Source: a virus
Reading direction: 5' to 3' (one strand)
DNA: 42,820 nucleotides
Virus record (IMG/VR): IMGVR_UViG_3300046009_002946
Coordinates: 1 to 42,820 of that record
Below the pieces are notes generated by a model. It saw nothing but the letters and a program-made list of their open reading frames with translations, was not told where the DNA came from and did no database searches. Shown one piece after another: positions 152 to 39,872 of this stretch. The position numbers were made by a program, and so were the translations under genes. How positions within the stretch are numbered: the first letter of the stretch is position 1; the number at the start of each line of letters is the position of its first letter.

Positions 152-363
152 AGTGTTAGCTCCCAGCCTGTCGGCTTTATTAAATGTTGTTGTAAAAACT
201 TTCTACACATCTTGTTGTCTAGTGAACTAACGTCCCTGCGCTTGCGTCTTTGCAAATGGTCTTGCACTCCTGCTACCACTGCACATCTCTTACATATTGT
301 ACTATCTGTTTTAAATGCTGATTCTTCTTTGATTAAGTTACATACCTCGCATAACCTATTCAT
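148..363 (-). CDS. Small zinc-ribbon protein (71 aa)
   Basis: I place the start at the ATG at 363, which overlaps the thyX stop by 8 nt, rather than at a longer upstream start inside thyX. The protein has a CEVC pair at residues 5-8 and an ICKRC pair about 15 residues later, a four-cysteine zinc-binding pattern, followed by a very basic stretch (LQRRKRRDV). This suggests a small nucleic-acid-binding protein, or the zinc-binding front part of an HNH-like protein without a visible catalytic core. The exact function is unknown. Confidence 0.65.
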   Translation of the reverse strand: MNRLCEVCNLIKEESAFKTDSTICKRCAVVAGVQDHLQRRKRRDVSSLDNKMCRKFLQQHLIKPTGWELTL

Positions 364-940
364 GCTCAAGCTCCTTAAAGATATTTGGTGCAATACCATG
401 TAGCTGGCGGTTAATCTCATGTGCCACTGCGCGTATCTCCCACTGCACTTCTTTACCACTACGCAGTTTAATAAAGTCATACCACGCTTGGAAGTTACCG
501 ACTACCAGTAATTCTGTTGTCGTGCCTTGTGGTAAGATGAATCGTGCATCTTCTTTCTTTACGCCTTCGGCAATTAAATCTTTATAGACTTGAGTTAACT
601 CAGCATACACAGTTTCAACTATTGTCTTATGTTCACCCTTAATTGAGGGGGGTATAACCATTGCTACTTCACCTTCATTGCAATACCTCTGACTACGTTG
701 CAAGAAATCTAAATGCTTACTGCGAACAAACTGATGTGAGCAAATACGACTAATGTCTGCAACTAAGAATGTCGCATGAGCAAAGCGTAGTGTAGATAGA
801 TGACCTTTAGTCACGCAGTGTTCTGCCCGTTTGATGCACTGCTCTGGTGATTGTTCACCTGTCTTACCGTAGCATATACCTGCAAGTAATCCGATGTGTT
901 CCTCTGGGTTAGGTGTGCTTTGCACTAGGGTTACTTTCAT
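356..940 (-). CDS. thyX: FAD-dependent thymidylate synthase ThyX
   Basis: Makes dTMP from dUMP using methylene-tetrahydrofolate and reduced flavin. The 194-residue length and the C-terminal SQRY of the signature region (about residues 73-86, RSKHLDFLQRSQRY) fit ThyX. The classical RHR at the start of the signature is RSK here, a departure from the canonical motif. The ATG at 940 is preferred over the one at 955: GGAGG lies 7 nt upstream and the ATG overlaps the previous stop as ATGA. It sits in an operon with dut and a TSCPD protein, a phage DNA-precursor module. Confidence 0.88.
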   Translation of the reverse strand: MKVTLVQSTPNPEEHIGLLAGICYGKTGEQSPEQCIKRAEHCVTKGHLSTLRFAHATFLVADISRICSHQFVRSKHLDFLQRSQRYCNEGEVAMVIPPSIKGEHKTIVETVYAELTQVYKDLIAEGVKKEDARFILPQGTTTELLVVGNFQAWYDFIKLRSGKEVQWEIRAVAHEINRQLHGIAPNIFKELEHE

Positions 941-1248
941 ATTTTGTCCTCCCATGAGAAGTTGTATCTATCTTTTGCTTTAAATATCAGTAAGCCTCTT
1001 TCATCAACCTCATCAACCTCATCAACCTCATCACACGTAAACTCAGGCATATTACAAAAAGTATAAGGAGATTTCTCATCAGGTACGCTGTCATATAACA
1101 AGCGTAATACCTCTTGCATAATCCAGAACTTATCCATTACTTCTGTAAACTCTTTAAGAAACTCTTCACTAACCTCAACCTCTTTACCAAACCCATCACC
1201 TATATCATATATGGGGTAGAGCTCATCCTCACTAACTTTTAGTTTCAT
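937..1248 (-). CDS. Acidic hypothetical protein with a DEV tandem repeat (103 aa)
   Basis: The start is placed at ATG 1248, which overlaps the preceding stop as ATGA; the longer frame to 1293 would overlap the neighbour more. The protein is strongly acidic. A short run of Asp-Glu-Val triplets near residue 80 is encoded by an in-frame 9-bp tandem repeat, so its length could vary by slippage without a frameshift. I recognise no domain. Its coupling to thyX suggests co-expression only. Confidence 0.65.
   Translation of the reverse strand: MKLKVSEDELYPIYDIGDGFGKEVEVSEEFLKEFTEVMDKFWIMQEVLRLLYDSVPDEKSPYTFCNMPEFTCDEVDEVDEVDERGLLIFKAKDRYNFSWEDKI
1002..1033. repeat. 9-bp in-frame tandem repeat
   Basis: The unit CATCAACCT occurs three times in a row (1002-1010, 1011-1019, 1020-1028), followed by a partial fourth copy. 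It lies inside the coding sequence at 937-1248 and encodes repeated Asp-Glu-Val. Confidence 0.9.
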
Positions 1249-1445
1249 TTCTTCTCTCCAGTAAGTTGATAAGGATGACAGGTTAAATTCCATCTGCCTG
1301 CAAACTGCAAATTTTTAAATGCAAAATCCTGTTTAACTGCCGCGCTTTCACACGATGCCTTATCTGCAAAATCGATTGTTGATTGTGTAAGCTCACCGTG
1401 AGTTGTTACAGCGATAATTAAAATATAGGCTGTTGTACTAATCAT
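1245..1445 (-). CDS. Small exported protein (66 aa)
   Basis: The ATG at 1445 overlaps the dut stop by 8 nt. The N-terminus (MISTTAYILIIAVTTHGEL) is a hydrophobic signal-like segment, followed by a soluble region with two cysteines (SCESAAV and LTCHP) that could form a disulfide outside the cytoplasm. The layout resembles the product at 6557-6805, which also has a hydrophobic start, an Ala-Cys-Asn region and a second late cysteine; the two may be paralogous. Function unknown. Confidence 0.6.
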   Translation of the reverse strand: MISTTAYILIIAVTTHGELTQSTIDFADKASCESAAVKQDFAFKNLQFAGRWNLTCHPYQLTGEKK

Positions 1446-1881
1446 TACCTGTACTCCCAAAGCCACCTGCACCACGCTCAGTCACTGTGCTGAACTCCTC
1501 AACTTCTACAAACTCTGCTCGAATTACTGGAACAAAAAGCATCTGTGCAATCCTGTCTTGTGGGGATATTTTATACAGCCCGTTACCTGTGTTCTTAATA
1601 CTAACTTTAAGCTCACCTTGATAGTCACTATCAATTAAACCAACCGAGTTACCCAACTTGATACCATAGTTATGTCCAAGTCCACTACGAGGCATGATAA
1701 GAGCCGCCGCTTCTACGTCATGGATATTTATTGCAATACCTGTCGGTATCATCGCAACCTCACCTAAATCTAACTTAATCGGTTTTGTGATGTTAGCTCT
1801 TAAGTCTACTGCCGCACTGCCCAAAGTTTCATAGGCAGGAATAACTACATTCTTTGTTAACTTCTTAATTTCAATTTTCAT
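1438..1881 (-). CDS. dut: Deoxyuridine triphosphatase (dUTPase)
   Basis: Hydrolyses dUTP to dUMP and pyrophosphate, supplying ThyX and keeping uracil out of phage DNA. All five trimeric dUTPase motifs are visible: AAVDLRA (23-29), PRSGLG (64-69), GLIDSDYQG with the catalytic Asp (81-89), RIAQMLF (110-116) and the C-terminal glycine-rich RGAGGFGSTG (136-145). The 147-residue length is normal for the family. The gene overlaps its upstream neighbour by 11 nt and its downstream one by 8 nt, so it belongs to the leftward operon. Confidence 0.97.
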   Translation of the reverse strand: MKIEIKKLTKNVVIPAYETLGSAAVDLRANITKPIKLDLGEVAMIPTGIAINIHDVEAAALIMPRSGLGHNYGIKLGNSVGLIDSDYQGELKVSIKNTGNGLYKISPQDRIAQMLFVPVIRAEFVEVEEFSTVTERGAGGFGSTGND

Positions 1882-2099: not shown

Positions 2100-2702
2100 T
2101 CACCCACACTTGCTATCGCCACAATTAGTACACGTCATACAGCCATCCATTAGTATCAGAGCTTTGACATTACATTTAGTGCAGAGTTGCATCTCAACAC
2201 CTTTAGCTTCTTCTTTCTTAGCTTCCAAGTACGCTTGTTGATGTGCGTCCACTTCAACTTTAATAACACCTATGCTTATTAAATGTTGCTCGATAACTGT
2301 TCCTATTTCTGCTACGAGCGATGGCATATACACACCACCTTTTTTATAGTAACCACCTTTCGGGTCAAACACATTCTTAAGTTCTTCAACTAAAAACGTA
2401 GAGTCACCACCTTTTCTCCACACTGCGGACACCAAACGCGTTAATGCAAGTACCCACTGAAAGTGCTCCATGTTCTTACTGTTAATAAACATCTCGTAGG
2501 GATGACGCTCGTCACCGTTAAGCACCATATCATTGATAGTGATATACAGAGCGTGTTCGCTTTGTGGCGTTTTTACTTTGTACGTTGTACCCGTCAAATG
2601 CGGTGGGCGAGGAAAATTCTCGTGTATCATCTCAAACACTACTTTTTCTTCTGTCTTATCAACTACTTTGTAGCCTACAATCTTTTGGTCAATTTTATTC
2701 AT
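2100..2702 (-). CDS. TSCPD-domain protein, NrdJb-like
   Basis: The middle of this 200-residue protein (HPYEMFINSKN, then LVSAVWRKGG, then GGYYKKGG and PSLVAEIG) matches the TSCPD domain that forms the C-terminal part of many B12-dependent (class II) ribonucleotide reductases or a separate NrdJb subunit. The C-terminus has a zinc-ribbon-like cysteine cluster (CTKC, then GCMTCTNCGDSKC), also typical of class II reductase tails. No catalytic reductase subunit is visible in the window, so the partner may lie beyond the left edge or in the host. The nucleotide-metabolism context supports a dNTP-synthesis role. Confidence 0.75.
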   Translation of the reverse strand: MNKIDQKIVGYKVVDKTEEKVVFEMIHENFPRPPHLTGTTYKVKTPQSEHALYITINDMVLNGDERHPYEMFINSKNMEHFQWVLALTRLVSAVWRKGGDSTFLVEELKNVFDPKGGYYKKGGVYMPSLVAEIGTVIEQHLISIGVIKVEVDAHQQAYLEAKKEEAKGVEMQLCTKCNVKALILMDGCMTCTNCGDSKCG

Positions 2703-2835
2703 CTATCATGTCCTCTAAAAATTCCCCAATACAATCTAGCAGTATGCTAAGCCCTAATAACATCTGACTTGCTAAGTACAACAAACAGCAAGTACAGAAT
2801 ACAGGGAACTTCAATATGTTTATTAGTGTCTTCAT
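2695..2835 (-). CDS. Tiny membrane protein (46 aa)
   Basis: This frame starts at ATG 2835, overlapping the preceding TGA as ATGA, and ends 8 nt inside the next gene. Residues 10-37 are almost wholly hydrophobic with three cysteines (VFCTCCLLYLA, then LLGLSILL), followed by an acidic tail (EFLEDMIDE). It probably spans the membrane once. The ATGA coupling is the main argument that it is real. Confidence 0.5.
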   Translation of the reverse strand: MKTLINILKFPVFCTCCLLYLASQMLLGLSILLDCIGEFLEDMIDE

Positions 2836-2990
2836 CTCTGATGCTTCACTACGTTAAAAATAGGGCGTTGTTCTTTGCACTTGTCACATTCACGATACCC
2901 ACGACTTTGATACACTCTCCAATGGTCATGCTTACAGTGTACTGCGCTAGTCACAGGAGTTACTGCTTCTACCTTTTTAACTTTGTCCAT
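2832..2990 (-). CDS. Small zinc-finger protein (52 aa)
   Basis: The start at ATG 2990 has GAGG 5 nt upstream and is preferred over a longer frame. The C-terminal half carries a CKHDH and CDKC pattern (Cys-x-His-x-His, then Cys-x2-Cys about 15 residues later) that could bind one zinc ion. The stop overlaps the next ATG as ATGA. Function unknown. Confidence 0.55.
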   Translation of the reverse strand: MDKVKKVEAVTPVTSAVHCKHDHWRVYQSRGYRECDKCKEQRPIFNVVKHQR

Positions 2991-3058
2991 ATAATCCTCA
3001 TCGATAAGCCAAGTAATCCTACATAAGCAACAAGTGCCACCCAATCATCTAAGGTCAT
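2969..3058 (-). CDS. Possible tiny membrane protein (29 aa)
   Basis: The frame from ATG 3058 has an AGGGG-type ribosome binding site about 6 nt upstream. It encodes a hydrophobic helix (VALVAYVGLLGLSM) followed by a basic end (WTKLKR), a normal inside-positive single-span layout. It overlaps both neighbours in other frames. Its size makes it uncertain. Confidence 0.4.
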   Translation of the reverse strand: MTLDDWVALVAYVGLLGLSMRIIWTKLKR

Positions 3059-3137
3059 CGTCATCCCCTTTAGTGTACTCAATCATAAAACAGACCATAG
3101 TAATTCCAATTACAGTCCAATACGTTATCTCAGCCAT
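3045..3137 (-). CDS. Possible tiny membrane protein (30 aa)
   Basis: ATG 3137 lies inside the last codons of the upstream small gene. The product begins with a hydrophobic helix (YWTVIGITMVCFMI) and ends with an acidic tail (GDDDD). It belongs to a chain of overlapping tiny frames between 2695 and 3469. No homology is recognised. Confidence 0.42.
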   Translation of the reverse strand: MAEITYWTVIGITMVCFMIEYTKGDDDDLR

Positions 3138-3279
3138 CTAACACCTCTTGTTCTTCCATCGCTCTGAGCATCAGCTTGAGTTGCTGTATCTCTGCGAGGA
3201 TTTTAAGTTTAACTTTCTTTAATTCTTTCTTGTTCTTCTGCGCCATCTCAAGGCGTTTATACACTTCAGTCTTTGTCAT
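3130..3279 (-). CDS. Short Lys/Glu-rich coiled-coil protein (49 aa)
   Basis: Starts at ATG 3279, overlapping the upstream gene by 14 nt, and ends 8 nt past the start of the next frame. It is a highly charged helix (many Lys, Glu and Gln with regularly spaced Leu and Met), probably one coiled coil. No known family is recognised. Confidence 0.5.
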   Translation of the reverse strand: MTKTEVYKRLEMAQKNKKELKKVKLKILAEIQQLKLMLRAMEEQEVLDG

Positions 3280-3478: not shown

Positions 3479-6142
3479 CTAACAATCAGCTATACTTCTA
3501 CCCCAGCCGCCCTCAGCCGCTAGTGGTATACCTTGCATCCACTCTGGTGGTCTGCACATCTCTTCAATTAAAAAGTCTAAGGCTTCCTGCGCCTCATCCT
3601 CTGGCACAACTATATACAGCGCGTCATGAATAGACAGCGCGATTTGATACCTCTTAGCTATGCGAACCATAGCCTCTGACATGATGCATCGTGCCGTACC
3701 TTGCACCAGATTGTTTGTTAACTTACCGCCGTAAAGTCTATCATATCCATTGCGCAGTTTATACTTGTAACCCTTCTCGCCAGACGATTCGTCTATCACA
3801 TTCTCAAGCTGTGGGTACTGCATATATAGACCAGACGGGAACTTCACACCACGCTTACCATCTACTATATACAAACCATTGCGACCAAATGTAAACGTAC
3901 CATCGTCAGCGATTGCCTTAATAGCACTACTACACGTCTTCCAAAACGCTGTCACCCCTGTGTATGTATTGCGGTAGAGGTCTACGATGCGCTTCGCCTC
4001 TGCCTCACCTAAGTCAGTACCTGACTGTGATTTTATAGAGTTTTGGAGTTTAGAATGTCCTACACCAAAGATAAGCCCGAGCTGGCAGTTATGGACAATT
4101 ATAGGACCTCTATTTGTAAGTACTGTAAATCTATTTCTCGTACCTACTGAGTTCAAGTCGTAGACGGGTAACCTCATCTTCGAGGTCATTGACCCTTCGT
4201 TTGTTTCTGTTATTGTCGCTCCTTGAGACGAACCTAATATTCCCCGGCTCGTACCCTCTATTGTTGTCTCTCCTGTCCATATCGTACTCTGGGATGTCCC
4301 ATCCTTCCAAGGTCTGTACATACTTAAGGAATTCCCCTTTGTCATTACGCCACTCATCACATACAGTAATTCCTCTTGCCCCATACGATTTGTACGACCC
4401 ATTAGAGGGTGTATGACATCTAGTAATTGCTGCACATAGCCTATTAAGTAGCCTAGCCCTATGGTCATCGTCTGGCATACTACTAATGTAGTTCCAATAT
4501 CTTTTTGTAGCCCCTGCTTTACGAGCGCACTTAAAGCATCTAGTAGTCTTAAACTCTTTGAAGTTATGCTGGTCCAACGTGTATTCAGGAAACCCACAAT
4601 CACATTTAACAATGAGGGCTTTGAGTCCCCCTTTTGCCCCCAACACGTACCCTGTAACGGTAATTTTTCCGACCCTGCATCCAATACTTGGGATAGGTCG
4701 CACTCTGTTGAACCCACCTGATCTGCTCGTACCCACTTCTGTCCTGACCACACTAGGTGATCTGGAGTTAACCAAATCCCGCAAATCTCTAGCGTTTCTT
4801 TCAAACCGTTCGTAACTAATCCTAGGTGGCATACCCATTCCTCCCCATCCCATACCCTATCATTTATGGAAACTTTTTCTATAGGTTTCCACCCCGATTC
4901 ACATAGTACAGGAGTTCCCTTGGCAAGACAAGTTTTACCGATAAACCGCTGTGCCTTAGTTACCTCCTCGTATGGCACGTTAAACGCAAGGGATGCAAAC
5001 TCCTTATACAAATCCCGACCATCACCTAGTGACTTGAGAGCCTCCATCTCATCACATACCCAAAGACCCACACGCAGTTCAATGTTAGATAAGTCAGCCC
5101 CTACTACGACCATACCATCAGGTGCAATAATAGACTTCTTAAGTGTGCTATCTCTTGGTAAGTTCTGGAAATTTACCTTCTGCCCACCACCTGCTGACCA
5201 CCTGCCTGTTGCCGCACCATAATAGTTTAGCGGTATGGGTAAGTAATTAGTTCGTTTAGCGATTCCAATAAAGCGTTCAGTCCGTGTTTCTTCGATTGTA
5301 CTCTTAACACCAAGTCGCGTTGCGACCAGTACCTGCACATCTGGGTTCTCATGTTCGAGTAAGTCTTTGAGTCCGTCATCAGTCTTTGCGAAGGCATACG
5401 TTAGTTTTCCTGTAGTAGGTGATACTTTCATTGGTACATCAACCCCGTAGCTCTCAAGCAGTGCCGCGAACTTAGGGTTACTCATCAACTCTTTCTTATC
5501 GGCAACCACTCGACTCAGTAAGTCTTCCTTCTTTGTGCGTACTTCATGCAGGTAGGACTCCAGCATAGGCAGGTCGATAGTTAGCGTAGGGTTTGTTGCC
5601 ATCTTAATAGTAATATCAATTAGCGATAGCTCCTGTGTGTTGAAGTGCGGCATCAGTGCATGGAATAGCTTATACGTAACCTCCACATCGTTCACACAGT
5701 ATTCACCATACCTTGCAAGCTCTTCCTCAGTAAAGTCTTTGAGGTGTTTACCCAATGCGTTTACTACCTCCGTACCCTTCGCCCCTAGTTCATAATACTC
5801 TACTAGTTTAGCTAGGCTACCGCCTACTGATATGCCATGTATTGCACGAGCCATAGACAGGGTGTCTATATACCTCTTAGCCGTGATACCAAAATACTCT
5901 GATAGAATCGTTGCATCAAAGAATGTGTTATGGCACAGCAGGATTTGATTAGGTATATCGTATAAGTCTAGGTACGCCTTAAGCTCCTCCTTAGTTCCTG
6001 TGTAAAAGATAGTAGGTTTATCGTCTACCTTGATGCCTACACCAATCACCTCAAACTCATCACCGTTTACATACTCTTCAGTGGTTAGCTTAGATAAGCT
6101 GTAGGTCTTGCTGTAATACGTTTCCATATCTAGCGTAATCAT
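3479..6142 (-). CDS. Family A DNA polymerase with 3'-5' exonuclease, interrupted by an intein
   Basis: Replicative DNA polymerase, about 606 residues once the 281-residue intein is removed. The N-terminal DEDD proofreading domain shows LDMET (4-8), HNTFFD (71-76) and YCVNDVEVTY (148-157). The polymerase domain shows a GRWSAGGG...NFQNLPR region, motif A GADLSNIELR with catalytic Asp350, motif B (QRFIGKT then CQLGLIFG) and motif C SIHDALY with catalytic Asp840. Motif C reads HDA where most family members have HDE. The intein sits inside motif B, the O-helix that contacts the incoming nucleotide, a typical essential insertion site. The start overlaps the preceding stop as ATGA. Confidence 0.96.
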   Translation of the reverse strand: MITLDMETYYSKTYSLSKLTTEEYVNGDEFEVIGVGIKVDDKPTIFYTGTKEELKAYLDLYDIPNQILLCHNTFFDATILSEYFGITAKRYIDTLSMARAIHGISVGGSLAKLVEYYELGAKGTEVVNALGKHLKDFTEEELARYGEYCVNDVEVTYKLFHALMPHFNTQELSLIDITIKMATNPTLTIDLPMLESYLHEVRTKKEDLLSRVVADKKELMSNPKFAALLESYGVDVPMKVSPTTGKLTYAFAKTDDGLKDLLEHENPDVQVLVATRLGVKSTIEETRTERFIGIAKRTNYLPIPLNYYGAATGRWSAGGGQKVNFQNLPRDSTLKKSIIAPDGMVVVGADLSNIELRVGLWVCDEMEALKSLGDGRDLYKEFASLAFNVPYEEVTKAQRFIGKTCLAKGTPVLCESGWKPIEKVSINDRVWDGEEWVCHLGLVTNGLKETLEICGIWLTPDHLVWSGQKWVRADQVGSTECDLSQVLDAGSEKLPLQGTCWGQKGDSKPSLLNVIVGFLNTRWTSITSKSLRLLDALSALVKQGLQKDIGTTLVVCQTMTIGLGYLIGYVQQLLDVIHPLMGRTNRMGQEELLYVMSGVMTKGNSLSMYRPWKDGTSQSTIWTGETTIEGTSRGILGSSQGATITETNEGSMTSKMRLPVYDLNSVGTRNRFTVLTNRGPIIVHNCQLGLIFGVGHSKLQNSIKSQSGTDLGEAEAKRIVDLYRNTYTGVTAFWKTCSSAIKAIADDGTFTFGRNGLYIVDGKRGVKFPSGLYMQYPQLENVIDESSGEKGYKYKLRNGYDRLYGGKLTNNLVQGTARCIMSEAMVRIAKRYQIALSIHDALYIVVPEDEAQEALDFLIEEMCRPPEWMQGIPLAAEGGWGRSIADC
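4088..4930 (-). other. Intein in the DNA polymerase motif B
   Basis: Residues 405-685 of the polymerase precursor form an intein. It begins with Cys405 in block A (CLAKGTPVL), has block B with TPDH (His462), block F (LPVYDLNS...NRFTVL), and ends with VHN followed by Cys686 as the +1 nucleophile. Removing it rejoins motif B as GKT-CQLGLIFG, so protein splicing is needed for an active polymerase. No LAGLIDADG domain is visible in frame. The 130 or so residues between blocks B and F have no recognisable domain in the polymerase frame, because this DNA mostly encodes an HNH endonuclease in another frame. Confidence 0.93.
4131..4832 (-). CDS. HNH homing endonuclease encoded out of frame inside the intein
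   Basis: An open frame of 233 codons lies wholly inside the intein DNA on the same strand, in the -1 frame relative to the polymerase. It has a zinc-ribbon-like N-terminal part (CDCG at 77-80, CFKC at 99-102) and a classical phage HNH core: RCH (139-141), YGARGITVCDEW (150-161), DMDRRDNN and GYEPGNIRF (184-201) and a final NRNKR. A GGGGAGG ribosome binding site 7 nt before ATG 4832 suggests independent translation; ATGs at 4853 and 4838 are alternatives. Its stop lies inside the codons for intein block F. It presumably cuts intein-free polymerase genes (inference). Confidence 0.9.
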   Translation of the reverse strand: MPPRISYERFERNARDLRDLVNSRSPSVVRTEVGTSRSGGFNRVRPIPSIGCRVGKITVTGYVLGAKGGLKALIVKCDCGFPEYTLDQHNFKEFKTTRCFKCARKAGATKRYWNYISSMPDDDHRARLLNRLCAAITRCHTPSNGSYKSYGARGITVCDEWRNDKGEFLKYVQTLEGWDIPEYDMDRRDNNRGYEPGNIRFVSRSDNNRNKRRVNDLEDEVTRLRLELSRYEK

Positions 6143-27349: not shown

Positions 27350-27358
27350 TTATTAATG

Positions 27359-27387
27359 TTTACACGCTGTGTGGTAAGTGGTATAGT
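27359..27387 (+). promoter_or_regulatory. Sigma70 promoter for the GIY-YIG gene
   Basis: TTTACA (27359-27364) and TATAGT (27382-27387) are exactly 17 nt apart. It lies between the capsid terminator and ATG 27419, so the endonuclease gene has its own transcription. Confidence 0.8.
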
Positions 27388-27418
27388 AAGTTTCACTAAA
27401 TTTACACCGGACATTAAA

Positions 27419-28324
27419 ATGAAAGTACCAGTAATCTACAAAATAAGAAATGTTGTTAACCAAAAGTTCTATGTTGGAAGCACAGGTAACAAACGTGAAA
27501 GGTTTAGAACACACAGAAATAAACTGCGCAGTAGCAAACATCACTGCGCTCATTTACAGGCAGCATGGAACAAATACGGGGAGGATTGTTTTGTTTTTGA
27601 AGTTGTAGAAGTAGTAAGTAGTATAGACGAATTACAAAAAGCTGAAGATGTTTGGTTATCTGAATGGGTAGGTAACGAAAACTGTTACAATCATGGACTT
27701 AGATCGGGCGCACCGTGGAGAGGAGTAGCTAAGGAGTTACACCCTAACTTTGGTAGAGTTATGTCTGAAGACCAAAAGGGTGTATTGCGAAAAGCTAGGT
27801 TAGCGCAACCGGACCCTCGTATTGGTAAAAAGCATACAGAAGAAACTAAACAGCGTATCAGTACTGCAAAAATGGCAAACCCTTCAAAATACTGGCAGGG
27901 TAAAACACGTTCTGATGAGACAAAAATTAAAATAAGTGAAGCTCAGAAAGGTGTTAAAAAAGCACCTAGAGTATATACAGAAGAAGGATTACGTAAAGCT
28001 CAAGAGACTATGAAGCGTAACGCCAGACCACAAGAACATACCCCTTTAAATGAGGTACTAGCTAAGTTTCCAGAAGAAGTGCGTAGTAAGTATGATTTTA
28101 CTAATGCCATCTACACAGGGGCGTTAAATAGAATTACAGGGTGTGTATGTCCTACGCACGGAGAGTTCTCTCAATATGCGGCTCAATTTAGAAAAGGGTC
28201 AGGCTGTGCAGAGTGCGGAGCACTTATTAGAAATGAGAAGAAACGTATTGAAATGAAGATGAAATGGTCAACTGAAGAGGGTCGTAAAAAGATGGGTAGA
28301 GGAGCCAATAAAATAGTTGCATAA
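27419..28324 (+). CDS. Free-standing GIY-YIG homing endonuclease (301 aa)
   Basis: The N-terminal GIY-YIG nuclease shows VIYKIRN (5-11) and YVGST (18-22). NUMOD3-like DNA-binding repeats follow (GKKHTEETKQRIS, then GKTRSDETKIKIS). The C-terminal part (YDFTNAIYTG, then CPTHGEFSQYAAQF and GCAECG) resembles the DUF723 zinc-containing module. ATG 27419 is chosen; ATG 27356 lies before the promoter. The gene sits as a cassette between the capsid gene and the next head gene, with its own promoter, suggesting mobility. Confidence 0.92.
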   Translation: MKVPVIYKIRNVVNQKFYVGSTGNKRERFRTHRNKLRSSKHHCAHLQAAWNKYGEDCFVFEVVEVVSSIDELQKAEDVWLSEWVGNENCYNHGLRSGAPWRGVAKELHPNFGRVMSEDQKGVLRKARLAQPDPRIGKKHTEETKQRISTAKMANPSKYWQGKTRSDETKIKISEAQKGVKKAPRVYTEEGLRKAQETMKRNARPQEHTPLNEVLAKFPEEVRSKYDFTNAIYTGALNRITGCVCPTHGEFSQYAAQFRKGSGCAECGALIRNEKKRIEMKMKWSTEEGRKKMGRGANKIVA

Positions 28325-34609: not shown

Positions 34610-34936
34610 ATGGCAACAACATATAAAGTCTTAGGACAATCTAATCCAGCGGCTACAACAGCGACAACGCTCTATACCGTACCTTCTGCAACGTCTGCTG
34701 TGTGCAGTACGCTTATTATTACAGCTCTCGGTGCAAGTACGACATTTAGAGTAGCAGTCAGACCGGCTGGCGCAGCTTTAGCAAATCAGCATTATATTAT
34801 TTACGATGCTCCAGTTAACCAATATGACGCAGTGTTTTTTACATTGGGTATCACGCTTGCAACCACTGATGTAGTAACCGTGTATGCAGGTAGTGCTAAC
34901 GTGACATTTTCATTGTACGGTTCGGAGTTAACCTAA
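34610..34936 (+). CDS. Small beta-rich protein (108 aa)
   Basis: A Thr/Ala-rich sequence with the pattern GQSNPAATTATTLYTVP, then VTVYAGSANVTFSLYG, similar to small phage head-fibre or tail proteins. The start touches the previous stop. Exact role unknown. Confidence 0.62.
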   Translation: MATTYKVLGQSNPAATTATTLYTVPSATSAVCSTLIITALGASTTFRVAVRPAGAALANQHYIIYDAPVNQYDAVFFTLGITLATTDVVTVYAGSANVTFSLYGSELT

Positions 34937-36948
34937 TGTCTGCCGGTAGAATAAGCTCAAAGCTGGCAAGCACAAAGAACCTTGGTAATCAACCAACACC
35001 TTGGGTTCGCGATCCTAACTGGACTACACTTCCTGATATTACAGGGCAACAAAAGTTTGTTGGCCTATATGCTATTTTTGAAGAATCTAATTATATTGCT
35101 TTGTCTGCAACCACATCAGCAGGGACTTATACGGTTGATTGGGGTGATGGCTCGTCTACTGTAGCAATAGCATCTGGGACACAAGCTAACTATTTGTATG
35201 ACTATGCAACGGTATCAGGTTCGCCTATCACGCATAATGGATTGACGTATAAACAAGTTATTGTAACGGTAACAGCGACAACAGCTAATTTAACAGGTGT
35301 AAATTTAAATTTAAAAAATACTGCAACAGGATTAACAACAGGGTACGGTACCGGATGGCTTGATATAGCAGTTAATGGAACAAACTTAACAAGTATAACT
35401 ATAGCGGGATCAACAAATAACGTCACGCATAGGTTATTAGAGTCAGCTACAATAGGTCAGCACTCGGCATCTTTTGTTGATTACTCATATATGTTTAGCG
35501 CATGTACAAATTTACAAAATGTCAGTATATCGTCATCATCGAGTGTTGTTACAAATATGAGTAGTATGTTTTCTAGTTGCACAGCATTAACGACAGTACC
35601 GTTATTCAATACAGCGGCTGTTACAAATATGAGTAGTATGTTTTCTAGTTGCACAGCATTAACAACAGTACCGTTATTCAATACAGCGGCTGTTACAAGT
35701 ATGAGCAGTATGTTCAACAATTGCAGTTCCTTAACAACAGTACCGCTATTCAATACAGCGGCTGTTACAAGTATGAGCAGTATGTTCAACAATTGCAGTT
35801 CCTTAACAACAGTACCGCTATTCAATACAGCGGCTGTTAACACTATGAGCAGTATGTTCAATGGTTGCGCAGCATTAACGACAGTACCGCTATTCAATAC
35901 AGCGGCTGTTACAAGTATGGGCAGTATGTTCAATGGTTGCGCAGCATTAACGACAGTACCGCTATTCAATACAGCTTCTGTTACGGCTACTATGCTCAGT
36001 ATGTTTTCTGGTTGCACATCATTAACAACAGTACCGCTATTTAATATAGTCGCTGCTACAAATATGACTAGTATGTTTCAAAATTGCACATCATTAACAA
36101 CAGTACCGCTATTCAATACAGCTTCTGTTAACACTATGAGCAGTATGTTCAACAATTGCAGTTCCTTAACAACAGTACCGCTATTCAATACAGCTTCTGT
36201 TAACACTATGAGCAGTATATTCAATGGTTGTTCAAGTTTAACATCTTTACCAGCATTAAATGCGGCATCATTATTATCCTTAACCACTATGTTTTCAACA
36301 TGTGCAAGCCTGACCAAAATAGCGATGACAGGATTTAAGTACACTTTTTCTGTCGCAGGACTAAAACTATCACGAGTGGCGTTAGAACTTTTGTTTTCAA
36401 ATTTAGGTATCGGTACATCCCAAACGCTGACGATTACATCAAATCCCGGTGCAGATACAGCCGTTAGTTTTACATTAAGAGCAACAACAGCTCAATCAAC
36501 TACTATTTTAATGGCTTCAACAACTGGACTTTCAACAGGTATGTCAATAAGTGGTACAGGCACAGGGATTACAACAGGCGCACCCGTGACGTTTCAAGAT
36601 GCAGGAGATACGGTGACACTCGCAAATCACGGTATGTCTAATGACGATATGATTTCATTTTCAGTAATTACAACGACTACAGGAATTGTAATCAACACCA
36701 TTTATTATATTATCAGCGCAACAACAAACACATTCCAAGTAGCATCTACTTTAGGCGGTGCAGCGTTACCGTTAACAACAAATGGCTCTGGCACAATGAA
36801 GTATAATGCAAAAATTGTAACGATTAACACCAATATATCGGTTGTTTTAGATAGACCTGCTGCTACTACAGTAGCCTCAACAACACTAGCATTTAGAGTC
36901 CTTAATACAGCACAAGCCAGATTGCGTGGTTGGACAATTTCGGGGTAA
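34936..36948 (+). CDS. BspA-type (DUF285) repeat adhesin (670 aa)
   Basis: Probable receptor-binding protein. Residues 40-90 (TYTVDWGDGSS) resemble a PKD-like domain. Residues 208-448 hold ten repeats of about 24 residues, each of the type MSSMFSSCTALTTVPLFNT, matching BspA/DUF285 leucine-rich-like repeats known from surface proteins of Mycoplasma and other bacteria. The C-terminal part is beta-rich. The DNA of the repeats is highly similar (see repeat entry), suggesting recent duplication and exchange. Confidence 0.85.
   Translation: MSAGRISSKLASTKNLGNQPTPWVRDPNWTTLPDITGQQKFVGLYAIFEESNYIALSATTSAGTYTVDWGDGSSTVAIASGTQANYLYDYATVSGSPITHNGLTYKQVIVTVTATTANLTGVNLNLKNTATGLTTGYGTGWLDIAVNGTNLTSITIAGSTNNVTHRLLESATIGQHSASFVDYSYMFSACTNLQNVSISSSSSVVTNMSSMFSSCTALTTVPLFNTAAVTNMSSMFSSCTALTTVPLFNTAAVTSMSSMFNNCSSLTTVPLFNTAAVTSMSSMFNNCSSLTTVPLFNTAAVNTMSSMFNGCAALTTVPLFNTAAVTSMGSMFNGCAALTTVPLFNTASVTATMLSMFSGCTSLTTVPLFNIVAATNMTSMFQNCTSLTTVPLFNTASVNTMSSMFNNCSSLTTVPLFNTASVNTMSSIFNGCSSLTSLPALNAASLLSLTTMFSTCASLTKIAMTGFKYTFSVAGLKLSRVALELLFSNLGIGTSQTLTITSNPGADTAVSFTLRATTAQSTTILMASTTGLSTGMSISGTGTGITTGAPVTFQDAGDTVTLANHGMSNDDMISFSVITTTTGIVINTIYYIISATTNTFQVASTLGGAALPLTTNGSGTMKYNAKIVTINTNISVVLDRPAATTVASTTLAFRVLNTAQARLRGWTISG
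35557..36279 (+). repeat. 72-bp tandem repeats (10 units) in adhesin gene
   Basis: Ten in-frame units begin at 35557, 35629, 35701, 35773, 35845, 35917, 35992, 36064, 36136 and 36208; unit 6 is 75 bp. Several units (for example 3 and 4, and the first part of 9) are almost identical, while others combine the same variants differently, a mosaic pattern. Confidence 0.9.
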
Positions 36949-37749: not shown

Positions 37750-38820
37750 ATGAGTATTACTTACACAGCGCTTTTAGGGTTAGCTCAACCTACACCGGGT
37801 ACAGAATCGGGTACTTGGGGTACCACAATCAATGATAGTTTAACTGCTTTACTTGAAACAGCTATCGCAGGTTCTAAAACAGCGGACGTTACCTCTAGTA
37901 ATTGGACACTAACTGATATTGATGGTGCAGATGATACTGCGCGAGCGGCGGTGCTTATTCCTACAGGGACTAATGGGGCTACTACACGTTCAATCCTTGC
38001 ACCTAACCAAAGTAAAATATACGTTATTATCAACCAAGCATCGGGGTCAGTTGTTATCAAAGGGGTTACAGGACCTACTACTGGTGTGACTATCCCTACA
38101 GGTAAAACAACTTTAGTGGCTTGGAGCGGTTCTGATTTTGTCGAGATTGCGCCAGGTACATCGGTTACTTCAGTAACTGGTACATCCCCTATAGTATCAA
38201 GCGGTGGATTAACTCCTGCAATTAGCATCTCACAAGCTACCACTTCGGTTAGCGGGTATTTAACTAACACAGACTGGAACACGTTTAATGGTAAATACTC
38301 AACAGGCGGTGCGCTCGGTACGCCTTCCAGTGGCACGCTAACTAATTGTACATTCCCAACACTTAATCAAAATACCACAGGTACAGCAGCTAATTTAACT
38401 GCGGCAACTACATTGCCTAGTGGTATGACTTTAGTTGCGCCCTTATTAGGAACACCTGCAAGCGGCACGCTAACTAATTGTACAGCAGACGGAACAAACG
38501 CGGTTGGGTATAAAAACATCCCTAAATCTGGTAGTGATAAGGTAACTTCATATCCTTTGGTAACAACAGACGTTGGTAAATATATTAGTGTTGGCTCTAG
38601 CGGCTCTATTACGGTGCCAGATGCTACATTTGCTGCTGGTGATGCAGTGTCTATTTTTAATAATACTTCTGGCAATATTACACTGACGATGAGTATTACG
38701 ACAGCTTATATCAGCGGTACAGATGCAGATAAAGCAACCATTACATTAGCAACTCGCGGTATTGCTACAATTTTATTTTTGAGTGGAACGGTATGCGTAG
38801 TATCTGGGAATGTGTCATGA
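37750..38820 (+). CDS. Tail fibre-like protein with GTPxSGTLTNCT repeats (356 aa)
   Basis: Starts SITYTALLGLAQPTPGTESGTWG, typical of tail fibre or structural proteins in this gene position. Contains the fibre repeat LGTPSSGTLTNCT and LGTPASGTLTNCT near residues 195-245. The end is beta-rich. It overlaps the next gene by 4 nt. Confidence 0.75.
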   Translation: MSITYTALLGLAQPTPGTESGTWGTTINDSLTALLETAIAGSKTADVTSSNWTLTDIDGADDTARAAVLIPTGTNGATTRSILAPNQSKIYVIINQASGSVVIKGVTGPTTGVTIPTGKTTLVAWSGSDFVEIAPGTSVTSVTGTSPIVSSGGLTPAISISQATTSVSGYLTNTDWNTFNGKYSTGGALGTPSSGTLTNCTFPTLNQNTTGTAANLTAATTLPSGMTLVAPLLGTPASGTLTNCTADGTNAVGYKNIPKSGSDKVTSYPLVTTDVGKYISVGSSGSITVPDATFAAGDAVSIFNNTSGNITLTMSITTAYISGTDADKATITLATRGIATILFLSGTVCVVSGNVS

Positions 38821-39872
38821 CAGGTATTATGCAGGTTATCCTTGCAGGGGTTAATAAACTGTTTGGGTTTACTACACCAGCACTTATGAACGGTAGTTCG
38901 ACAATCGCGCAAATGATTTCAGTAACAGTTAATAGCTCAGGACTATTTGTCGCAGTTGGGTATGACGGCGGTTATTCCCCAGTATATGCAACTTCAACTA
39001 ACGGTTCTACATGGACTACACCAGCACTTATGAACGGTAGTTCTGTAGCTGCATCAATGTTTTCAGTAACAGTTAATAGCTCAGGACTATTTGTCGCAGT
39101 TGGAATTAACAGTAGTGCTTATCCGGTATATGCAACTTCCAGTGACGGTTCTACATGGACTACACCAGCACTTATGAACGGTAGTTCTGTAGCTGCATCA
39201 ATGTTTTCAGTAACAGTTAATAGCTCAGGACTATTTGTCGCAGTTGGAATTAACAGTAGTAATTACCCAGTTTATGCAACTTCCAGTGACGGTTCTACAT
39301 GGACTACACCAGCACTTATGAACGGTAGTTCGACAATCGCGCAAATGATTTCAGTAACAGTTAATAGCTCAGGACTATTTGTCGCAGTTGGAATTAACAG
39401 TAGTGCTTATCCGGTATATGCAACTTCCAGTGACGGTTCTACATGGACTACACCAGCACTTATGAACGGTAGTTCTGTAGCTGCAACAATGCGTTCTGTA
39501 ACAGTAAATTCATCGGGATTATTTGTAGCTGTTGGAAGTAACAATATTGCCAGTAGTTATCCGGTATATGCAACTTCCAGTGACGGTTCTACATGGACTA
39601 CACCAGCACTTATGAACGGTAGTTCTGTAGCTGCAACAATGCGTTCTGTAACAGTTAATAGCTCTGGATTGTTTGTCGCTGTTGGGTATGACGGCGGTTA
39701 TTCCCCAGTATATGCAACTTCAACTAACGGTTCTACATGGACTACACCTGCGCTTATGAATAGTAGTTCCGCATTTGCTATTATGCTTTCAGTAACAGTA
39801 AACAGTTCTGGGTTATTTGTAGCTGTAGGGTATAACAGTAGTACTTATCCACTATATGCAACATCAACTTAA
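38817..39872 (+). CDS. Asp-box beta-propeller protein (351 aa)
   Basis: After a short hydrophobic N-terminus come seven repeats of 48 residues (one of 50): TTPALMNGSS, then SVTVNSSGLFVAVG and YATSSDGSTW. The SSDGSTW part is an Asp-box, so seven blades likely form a seven-bladed beta-propeller, a fold used for sugar binding. The DNA repeats are nearly identical. It probably binds host or surface glycans as part of the tail. ATG 38817 is chosen because it overlaps the previous stop as ATGA. Confidence 0.82.
   Translation: MTGIMQVILAGVNKLFGFTTPALMNGSSTIAQMISVTVNSSGLFVAVGYDGGYSPVYATSTNGSTWTTPALMNGSSVAASMFSVTVNSSGLFVAVGINSSAYPVYATSSDGSTWTTPALMNGSSVAASMFSVTVNSSGLFVAVGINSSNYPVYATSSDGSTWTTPALMNGSSTIAQMISVTVNSSGLFVAVGINSSAYPVYATSSDGSTWTTPALMNGSSVAATMRSVTVNSSGLFVAVGSNNIASSYPVYATSSDGSTWTTPALMNGSSVAATMRSVTVNSSGLFVAVGYDGGYSPVYATSTNGSTWTTPALMNSSSAFAIMLSVTVNSSGLFVAVGYNSSTYPLYATST
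38871..39872 (+). repeat. 144-bp tandem repeats (7 units) in propeller gene
   Basis: Units begin at 38871, 39015, 39159, 39303, 39447, 39597 and 39741; the spacing is 144 bp except once 150 bp. Units share long identical stretches but differ in small blocks, with the first and sixth sharing the GYDGGYSPVYATSTN variant, a mosaic pattern. Confidence 0.9.

Follow-up and report, generated by a model that had tools for sequence, protein, structure and literature searches.

Canonical inteins, such as PI-MtuI and PI-SceI, contain a homing endonuclease as a nested, in-frame domain. Group I introns encode HNH homing endonucleases as well (e.g. I-HmuI and I-PfoP3I). An HNH intein was reportedly identified by Dalgaard et al. 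in 1997, and Dassa et al. in 2009 are said to have described fractured genes, in which a free-standing endonuclease gene lies between the halves of a split intein.

A further related system is the ShiLan domain, an insertion without stop codons in the host frame that hides a zinc-finger HNH gene in a different frame (PMC11855218). Its authors found no intein splicing motifs, no intein fold and no ribosome binding site, they consider the insertion to be retained in the protein and not to be an intein, and the disjunct distribution of the domain was taken as homing (PMC11855218).

Here we analyzed a viral DNA stretch of 42,820 nt (IMG/VR record IMGVR_UViG_3300046009_002946, positions 1 to 42,820; hereafter the window), for which a first-pass annotation had proposed an intein with a complete HNH endonuclease gene overlapping it out of frame, an arrangement of which it knew no described example. 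In the literature that we could read, we found no description of an intein with an out-of-frame HNH gene, and in this exact form the novelty claim stands, but with ShiLan a near relative had been published (PMC11855218), and a preprint on actinobacteriophage intein architecture (10.1101/2025.01.02.630785) may hold earlier examples. The features of the locus are as follows (a slash in a motif marks the intein boundary).

3479-6142, minus strand: intein-containing gene for a family-A DNA polymerase precursor of 887 aa (Pfam DNA_pol_A, 4.1e-27; DNA_pol_A_exo1, 1e-9)
4088-4930, minus strand: class-1 intein, 281 aa, Cys405 to Asn685, with Cys686 as the +1 residue (splicing motifs)
4652-4930, minus strand: N-terminal splicing half, intein residues 1-93, blocks A and B (C1, WDGEEW, TPDH); predicted ordered, pLDDT mostly 88-97
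4187-4651, minus strand: intein-frame linker, residues 94-248, with the HNH body in the other frame; predicted disordered (pLDDT ~30), near-neutral in the intein frame
4088-4186, minus strand: C-terminal splicing half, residues 249-281, blocks F and G, HN/C; w_host 0.46 over residues 248-266
4840-4846, minus strand: Shine-Dalgarno sequence GGGGAGG, from the intein codons for Gly-Glu-Glu, 7 nt before ATG 4832
4830-4832, minus strand: HNH start codon ATG, formed by intein GTA/TGC (Val-Cys; here the slash separates codons)
4131-4832, minus strand: gene of an HNH-family endonuclease, read in the -1 frame (233 aa if started at ATG 4832, 240 aa if at ATG 4853; PHROG matches)
4527-4604, minus strand: zinc ribbon of the HNH protein (C77, C79, C99, C102; residue conservation)
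4197-4394, minus strand: HNH core YKSYGARGITV...DMDRRDNNRGYEPGNIRFV...N..N (motif conservation, PHROG)

Elsewhere in the window, a GIY-YIG-type homing endonuclease gene (PHROG_314, 1.6e-37; 27356-28324, plus strand) lies directly after a capsid-like gene and is a second homing gene of this phage. PHROG matches also identified a ThyX-like thymidylate synthase (356-955, minus strand) and a dUTPase (1438-1881, minus strand), and two ORFs are built of repeats (34936-36948 and 38793-39872, plus strand; LTTVPLFNTAAV... and SVTVNSSGLFVAVG..., respectively).

The intein itself was called correctly in the first pass, both in its coordinates and in its motifs: Cys1, WDGEEW, TPDH in block B, block F and VHN before Cys686. 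Hence, it has the marks of class 1, namely Cys/Ser as the first residue, TxxH in block B and a C-terminal HN followed by Cys/Ser/Thr, and C1, T55, H58, H280 and N281 are invariant among 54 intein relatives. The insertion point is in the R..GK(T)/..LGL.YG motif of the polymerase, which from its position we take to be the O-helix. In an AlphaFold2 model built from an alignment of 54 sequences, residues 1-93 and 249-281 have a pLDDT of mostly ~95 (95-97) and residues 94-248 of ~30. The PDB matches of this model are Hint domains and mini-inteins, including DnaX (7cfv), RecA (3ifj) and DnaB (best E 4.4e-3), except for one insignificant last match. A search of Pfam and NCBIfam with the intein product gave one intein_Nterm match and otherwise nothing useful. 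The model points to a Hint fold formed by the splicing ends, and the motifs suggest that the window intein splices.

The layout of the HNH gene was also confirmed: the ORF is offset from the polymerase frame by 2 mod 3 (-1), covers 702 of the 843 intein nucleotides from ATG 4832, and ends at TAG 4133-4131 inside block F. Searching profiles with both frames, we found the phage HNH families PHROG_374 (E = 7.5e-34), PHROG_3377 (4.7e-23) and PHROG_2081 (1.1e-22) for the HNH product and a match to PI-MtuI (E 7e-4) for the intein. In Pfam and NCBIfam, the HNH product matched no HNH family, and the only hit was the CapR homology domain, a zinc ribbon, in 20 members. Among 55 HNH relatives, C77, C99 and C102 of the zinc ribbon are invariant and C79 is kept in at least 90%. 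The catalytic motif is Asp-Arg (D186 in at least 90%, R187 invariant; 55 members) rather than the canonical Asp-His, so Arg takes the place of the catalytic His that would close the first strand, and we use the label HNH-family for this reason. The same Asp-Arg was seen by inspecting the free-standing phage relatives L061 and L178. The AlphaFold2 model of the HNH protein has a mean pLDDT of 86.6 and gave 90 matches in a viral structure library at E <= 1e-3, some of them named HNH or homing endonuclease; the best is an uncharacterized 247-aa protein of Salmonella phage LPSE1, apparently the same ORF annotated on its own. A PDB search of this model with Foldseek matched no structure. Given its family membership and the selection described below, we call the product a putative endonuclease.

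To judge whether the two open frames coincide by chance, we shuffled codons among positions with the same residue, which keeps both the protein and the codon usage. With the HNH protein kept, the intein frame was open in none of 20,000 permutations (mean 7.8 stops), and with the intein protein kept, the HNH frame was open in 2 of 20,000 (mean 7.3 stops); the third frame of the window intein has 35 stops. Thirty further loci (4,000 permutations each) gave the same outcome, for a total of 31 loci beyond chance, and L030 alone was weak (180/4,000 in one direction, 0/4,000 in the other). Hence, codon permutation and the third-frame control rule out a chance second ORF.

We found that the arrangement is not unique to the window phage. 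By tblastn, the HNH protein matched Jerseyvirus polymerase genes at ~47% identity, and phages Ent1, SE2, EnJE6 and Ijeoma have the HNH ORF inside the intein in the same -1 register as the window; the record of Salmonella phage Ent1 labels the segment only as an intein 'encoding splicing domains'. Scanning viral contigs and genome contigs for relatives, we found that in 162 of 167 HNH loci (a set with some duplicate or near-identical isolates, so that counts are loci and not independent events) at least 95% of the match is enclosed by an open frame in a different register, with the same arrangement of registers as in the window in 88 loci and the opposite one in 74. A recognizable HN-Cys/Ser/Thr splice junction is present in 157 loci, and a simple pattern detects PolA motifs in the host ORF of 152/162; most of the other 10 are visibly PolA or PolA fragments, and L214 is not. 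Outside the 167-locus set, 4 of 13 genome-contig relatives (L047-L049, L052) are not within such a frame and, together with L058-L064, are free-standing. The loci come from phages and prophages, with cultured carriers among phages of Salmonella (Jerseyvirus) and Streptococcus and in APSE-4. Two compensating frameshifts in L036/L137 (SETP3-like) and one in the C-extein of SE2 are probably sequencing errors.

A quick tree of the HNH core, built from short sequences and with many weak forks, has three clades that match register: clade 1 is that of the window, clade 2 includes Allobaculum and Streptococcus, and clade 3, with APSE-4 and SFCi1, lies among free-standing relatives. The insertion sites include GK(T)/C...C-LGLG, GKTTILG/C...C-GYGMG (four codons further), AELA/C...C-GYGG and one near YGG.L/C...C-EN. 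Over 150 loci share the arrangement, in several registers and at several sites. One reading, though not a proof, is that HNH genes and inteins became associated at least three separate times in PolA.

Some loci show further features. The inteins of L093 and L094 (and L073) are 81% identical in DNA and their flanks only 61-66%; these inteins occupy two positions of one PolA motif, separated by four codons, and the insertion site may have shifted. The polymerases of L041 and L088 carry two inteins, the one overlapped by the HNH gene and one of ~157 aa near EN/C..C-VQA (ORF residues 425-703 and 843-1000), and that of L042 has a second short intein-like segment (CLTAETLVTV...LVHN/S) that ends at residue 279, ahead of the HNH-overlapping one. 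In Escherichia phage PGN829.1 (L053), a free HNH gene at 2540-3196 interrupts the gene annotated as DNA polymerase I, which is left as two CDSs.

The element is very probably a mini-intein that is mobile and has its homing endonuclease encoded by a distinct gene nested within it. Judging from the sequences, the polymerase mRNA would be translated in the polymerase frame into a precursor, and the Hint domain made of both intein ends would splice itself out by the class-1 Cys/Asn-Cys route, so that the conserved polymerase motif is made whole again. Ribosomes would also enter this mRNA internally, where the intein codons for WDG-E-E-W-V-C provide a Shine-Dalgarno sequence and an ATG, yielding a free zinc-ribbon HNH protein. 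This protein would cut intein-free polymerase alleles of a co-infecting phage, and repair would copy the element in. The HNH gene would thereby occupy the usual endonuclease slot between blocks B and F, but in the other register; hence, the polymerase frame would read it as a disordered linker that strictly needs only to lack stop codons.

Mobility of the element is suggested by relatives with and without it. Intein-free alleles with uninterrupted flanks are present in Jerseyvirus S120 (95.9% identical to intein-bearing flanks), dunkel (96.2%) and Streptococcus Javan181 (85.8%), and these vacant alleles, seen in relatives of the window phage, lack exactly the intein segment. Most pairs of close relatives differ less in their intein DNA than in either flank; for example, the Allobaculum loci L050/L051 have inteins identical at 927/927 positions beside flanks at 92.3% and 91.2%, and L125/L132 have inteins at 99.6% beside flanks at 88% and 81%. 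The pair L087/L143 shows the reverse pattern. Slow evolution of dual-coding DNA could explain part of the high intein identity, but hardly 927/927 beside flanks that differ by 8%. The first-pass annotation had counted an intein kept beside a broken HNH frame as evidence against the arrangement. Five loci are of this kind (L011, L089, L175, L177 and L180), among them L011, where deletion of the HNH body has left a natural mini-intein of 144 aa, but they do not refute it because the homing cycle predicts such loci. The raw count of stops in the HNH frame overstates this decay, as the stops of clade 2 are mostly natural or late C-terminal ends.

Alternatively, the HNH protein might be expressed without being the homing enzyme of this intein, acting elsewhere, for example on the DNA of competitor phages, while sheltering in the intein. 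The existence of free-standing HNH relatives, the replaced catalytic His and the presence of one intein lineage at two sites (L093, L094) fit this idea, but the HNH gene lies in the position usual for an intein endonuclease, and both the vacant alleles and the contrasts between intein and flank identity point to mobility of exactly the intein segment. We therefore consider this alternative improbable and homing by the nested gene the better reading.

For translation of the HNH gene, ATG 4832 is a likelier start than ATG 4853 because GGGGAGG lies 7 nt ahead of it. This sequence, which the first pass had named as the gene's own ribosome binding site, was confirmed at 4846-4840, and its anti-SD energy is -11.5 kcal/mol compared to a mean of -7.2 kcal/mol for synonymous recodings. 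The p values for both signals are overstated, as the relatives share ancestry: where Val/Ile-Cys occupies intein positions 33-34, A is the last base of the Val/Ile codon, creating the ATG, in 37/37 distinct relatives (19.6% expected from the exteins; p 6e-27), and the relatives' anti-SD pairing is -8.6 kcal/mol compared to -7.1 kcal/mol for synonymous recodings, with 0/200 as strong. Without that Cys, an A-ending codon precedes TGG in 24/28, creating an alternative ATG.

These signals bear on whether the HNH product could instead arise by ribosomal frameshifting from the polymerase frame, as a fusion of polymerase, N-intein and HNH protein made with no internal initiation. The -1 register is the one that -1 frameshifting uses, and a few relatives (e.g. 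L028 and L030) have a longer open HNH frame upstream. However, a stop stands directly ahead of the HNH start in the window and in many relatives (TAG GGT ATG), and for this reason frameshifting is disfavored; in addition, the start codon and Shine-Dalgarno sequence are kept at synonymous sites, and the two other HNH clades are in the opposite register. Hence, frameshifting has little chance of being the route, and internal initiation of a separate gene is favored.

Selection was measured frame by frame using separate pairs of relatives, with substitutions classed by their effect in both frames against the mutational expectation. Within the family that has the window register, the linker (residues 80-245; 1,432 changes) has w_HNH 0.24 (p 6e-125) and w_host 0.76 (p 3e-4). 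In comparison, the N-terminal splicing segment (residues 36-75) has w_host 0.33 and w_HNH 0.67, and the C-terminal one (residues 248-266) has w_HNH 0.48 beside the w_host listed above. In the opposite register, the linker has w_HNH 0.27 and w_host 1.42, and as a control, putting the third frame in place of the HNH frame gave w above 2. Mean identities between the window and 69 relatives agree: 0.53 in the host frame and 0.34 in the HNH frame for the N-terminal splicing segment, 0.27 and 0.57 for the linker (third frame 0.25), and 0.53 and 0.24 for the C-terminal splicing segment. Hence, the DNA is mostly partitioned, with the ends selected in the intein frame and a middle of ~155 codons almost only in the HNH frame, where the intein frame is near-neutral and stop avoidance is its sole strict need; the AlphaFold model, with ordered ends and a disordered middle, is consistent with this. 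The first-pass statement that the same DNA is selected twice therefore holds at the splicing ends but not in the middle, and each frame is conserved in its own region, the intein frame not being so in the linker.

These values also decide against the HNH frame as a relic or by-product, in which function would reside in the intein frame alone and conservation of the second frame would follow from that of the first. Overlap does make each frame conserve the other to an extent, and the five loci with a broken HNH frame kept their inteins, but in the linker it is the HNH frame that is conserved, its zinc Cys and core residues are invariant, and the host-frame product there is predicted to be disordered. 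Two-frame selection thus rules out the relic, which we regard as very improbable, and argues for a functional nested gene. A group I or II intron carrying the HNH gene beside coincidental intein motifs is extremely improbable and was rejected, although HNH endonucleases are common in phage introns, as the host frame is open in 162 loci, C1/TxDH/HN/C (the first two slashes merely separating motifs) are conserved, the Hint prediction is of high confidence, and an Rfam search of 3479-6142 at E <= 1 gave no match to an intron RNA.

Beyond the window, we lean towards out-of-frame nesting being a recurrent and hitherto unrecognized architecture of mobile inteins, with at least three marriages of HNH gene and intein in PolA, two opposite registers and several sites. 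In this view, the Shine-Dalgarno sequence and start codon come from the intein frame, and the endonuclease, being translated separately, is freed from protein splicing. This would be a new way for an intein to carry an endonuclease, and a homing gene inside a core replication gene would cost little more than the avoidance of stops. It would also explain annotations of splicing domains only, as in Ent1, since the gene's own frame does not reveal the endonuclease and the Pfam and NCBIfam models tested miss it. The element offers a natural system of overprinting, in which constraint can be measured frame by frame, and cultured phages with and without it make homing testable.

Compared to canonical inteins, the locus likewise has the endonuclease between blocks B and F of a Hint domain, presence/absence alleles and mini-inteins that arise by loss; however, the canonical endonuclease is an in-frame portion of the intein protein that is spliced out, whereas that of the window would be a separate polypeptide opposite an unstructured linker. 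In fractured genes, the endonuclease is also a separate gene, but there the host gene and intein are split, while the window has an unbroken intein and two overlapping genes. Group I introns such as those of I-HmuI and I-PfoP3I resemble the locus in that a self-splicing element of a phage polymerase gene carries an independent HNH frame, but these introns splice at the RNA level and are not translated in the host frame. With ShiLan, the locus shares a hidden, out-of-frame zinc-finger HNH gene in an insertion that is open in the host frame. Unlike ShiLan, where splicing motifs are missing and the insertion is thought to stay in the protein, the window element does not belong to that type: its insertion, a class-1 intein complete in its splicing motifs and with a predicted Hint fold, has its own Shine-Dalgarno sequence and sits in a conserved polymerase motif.
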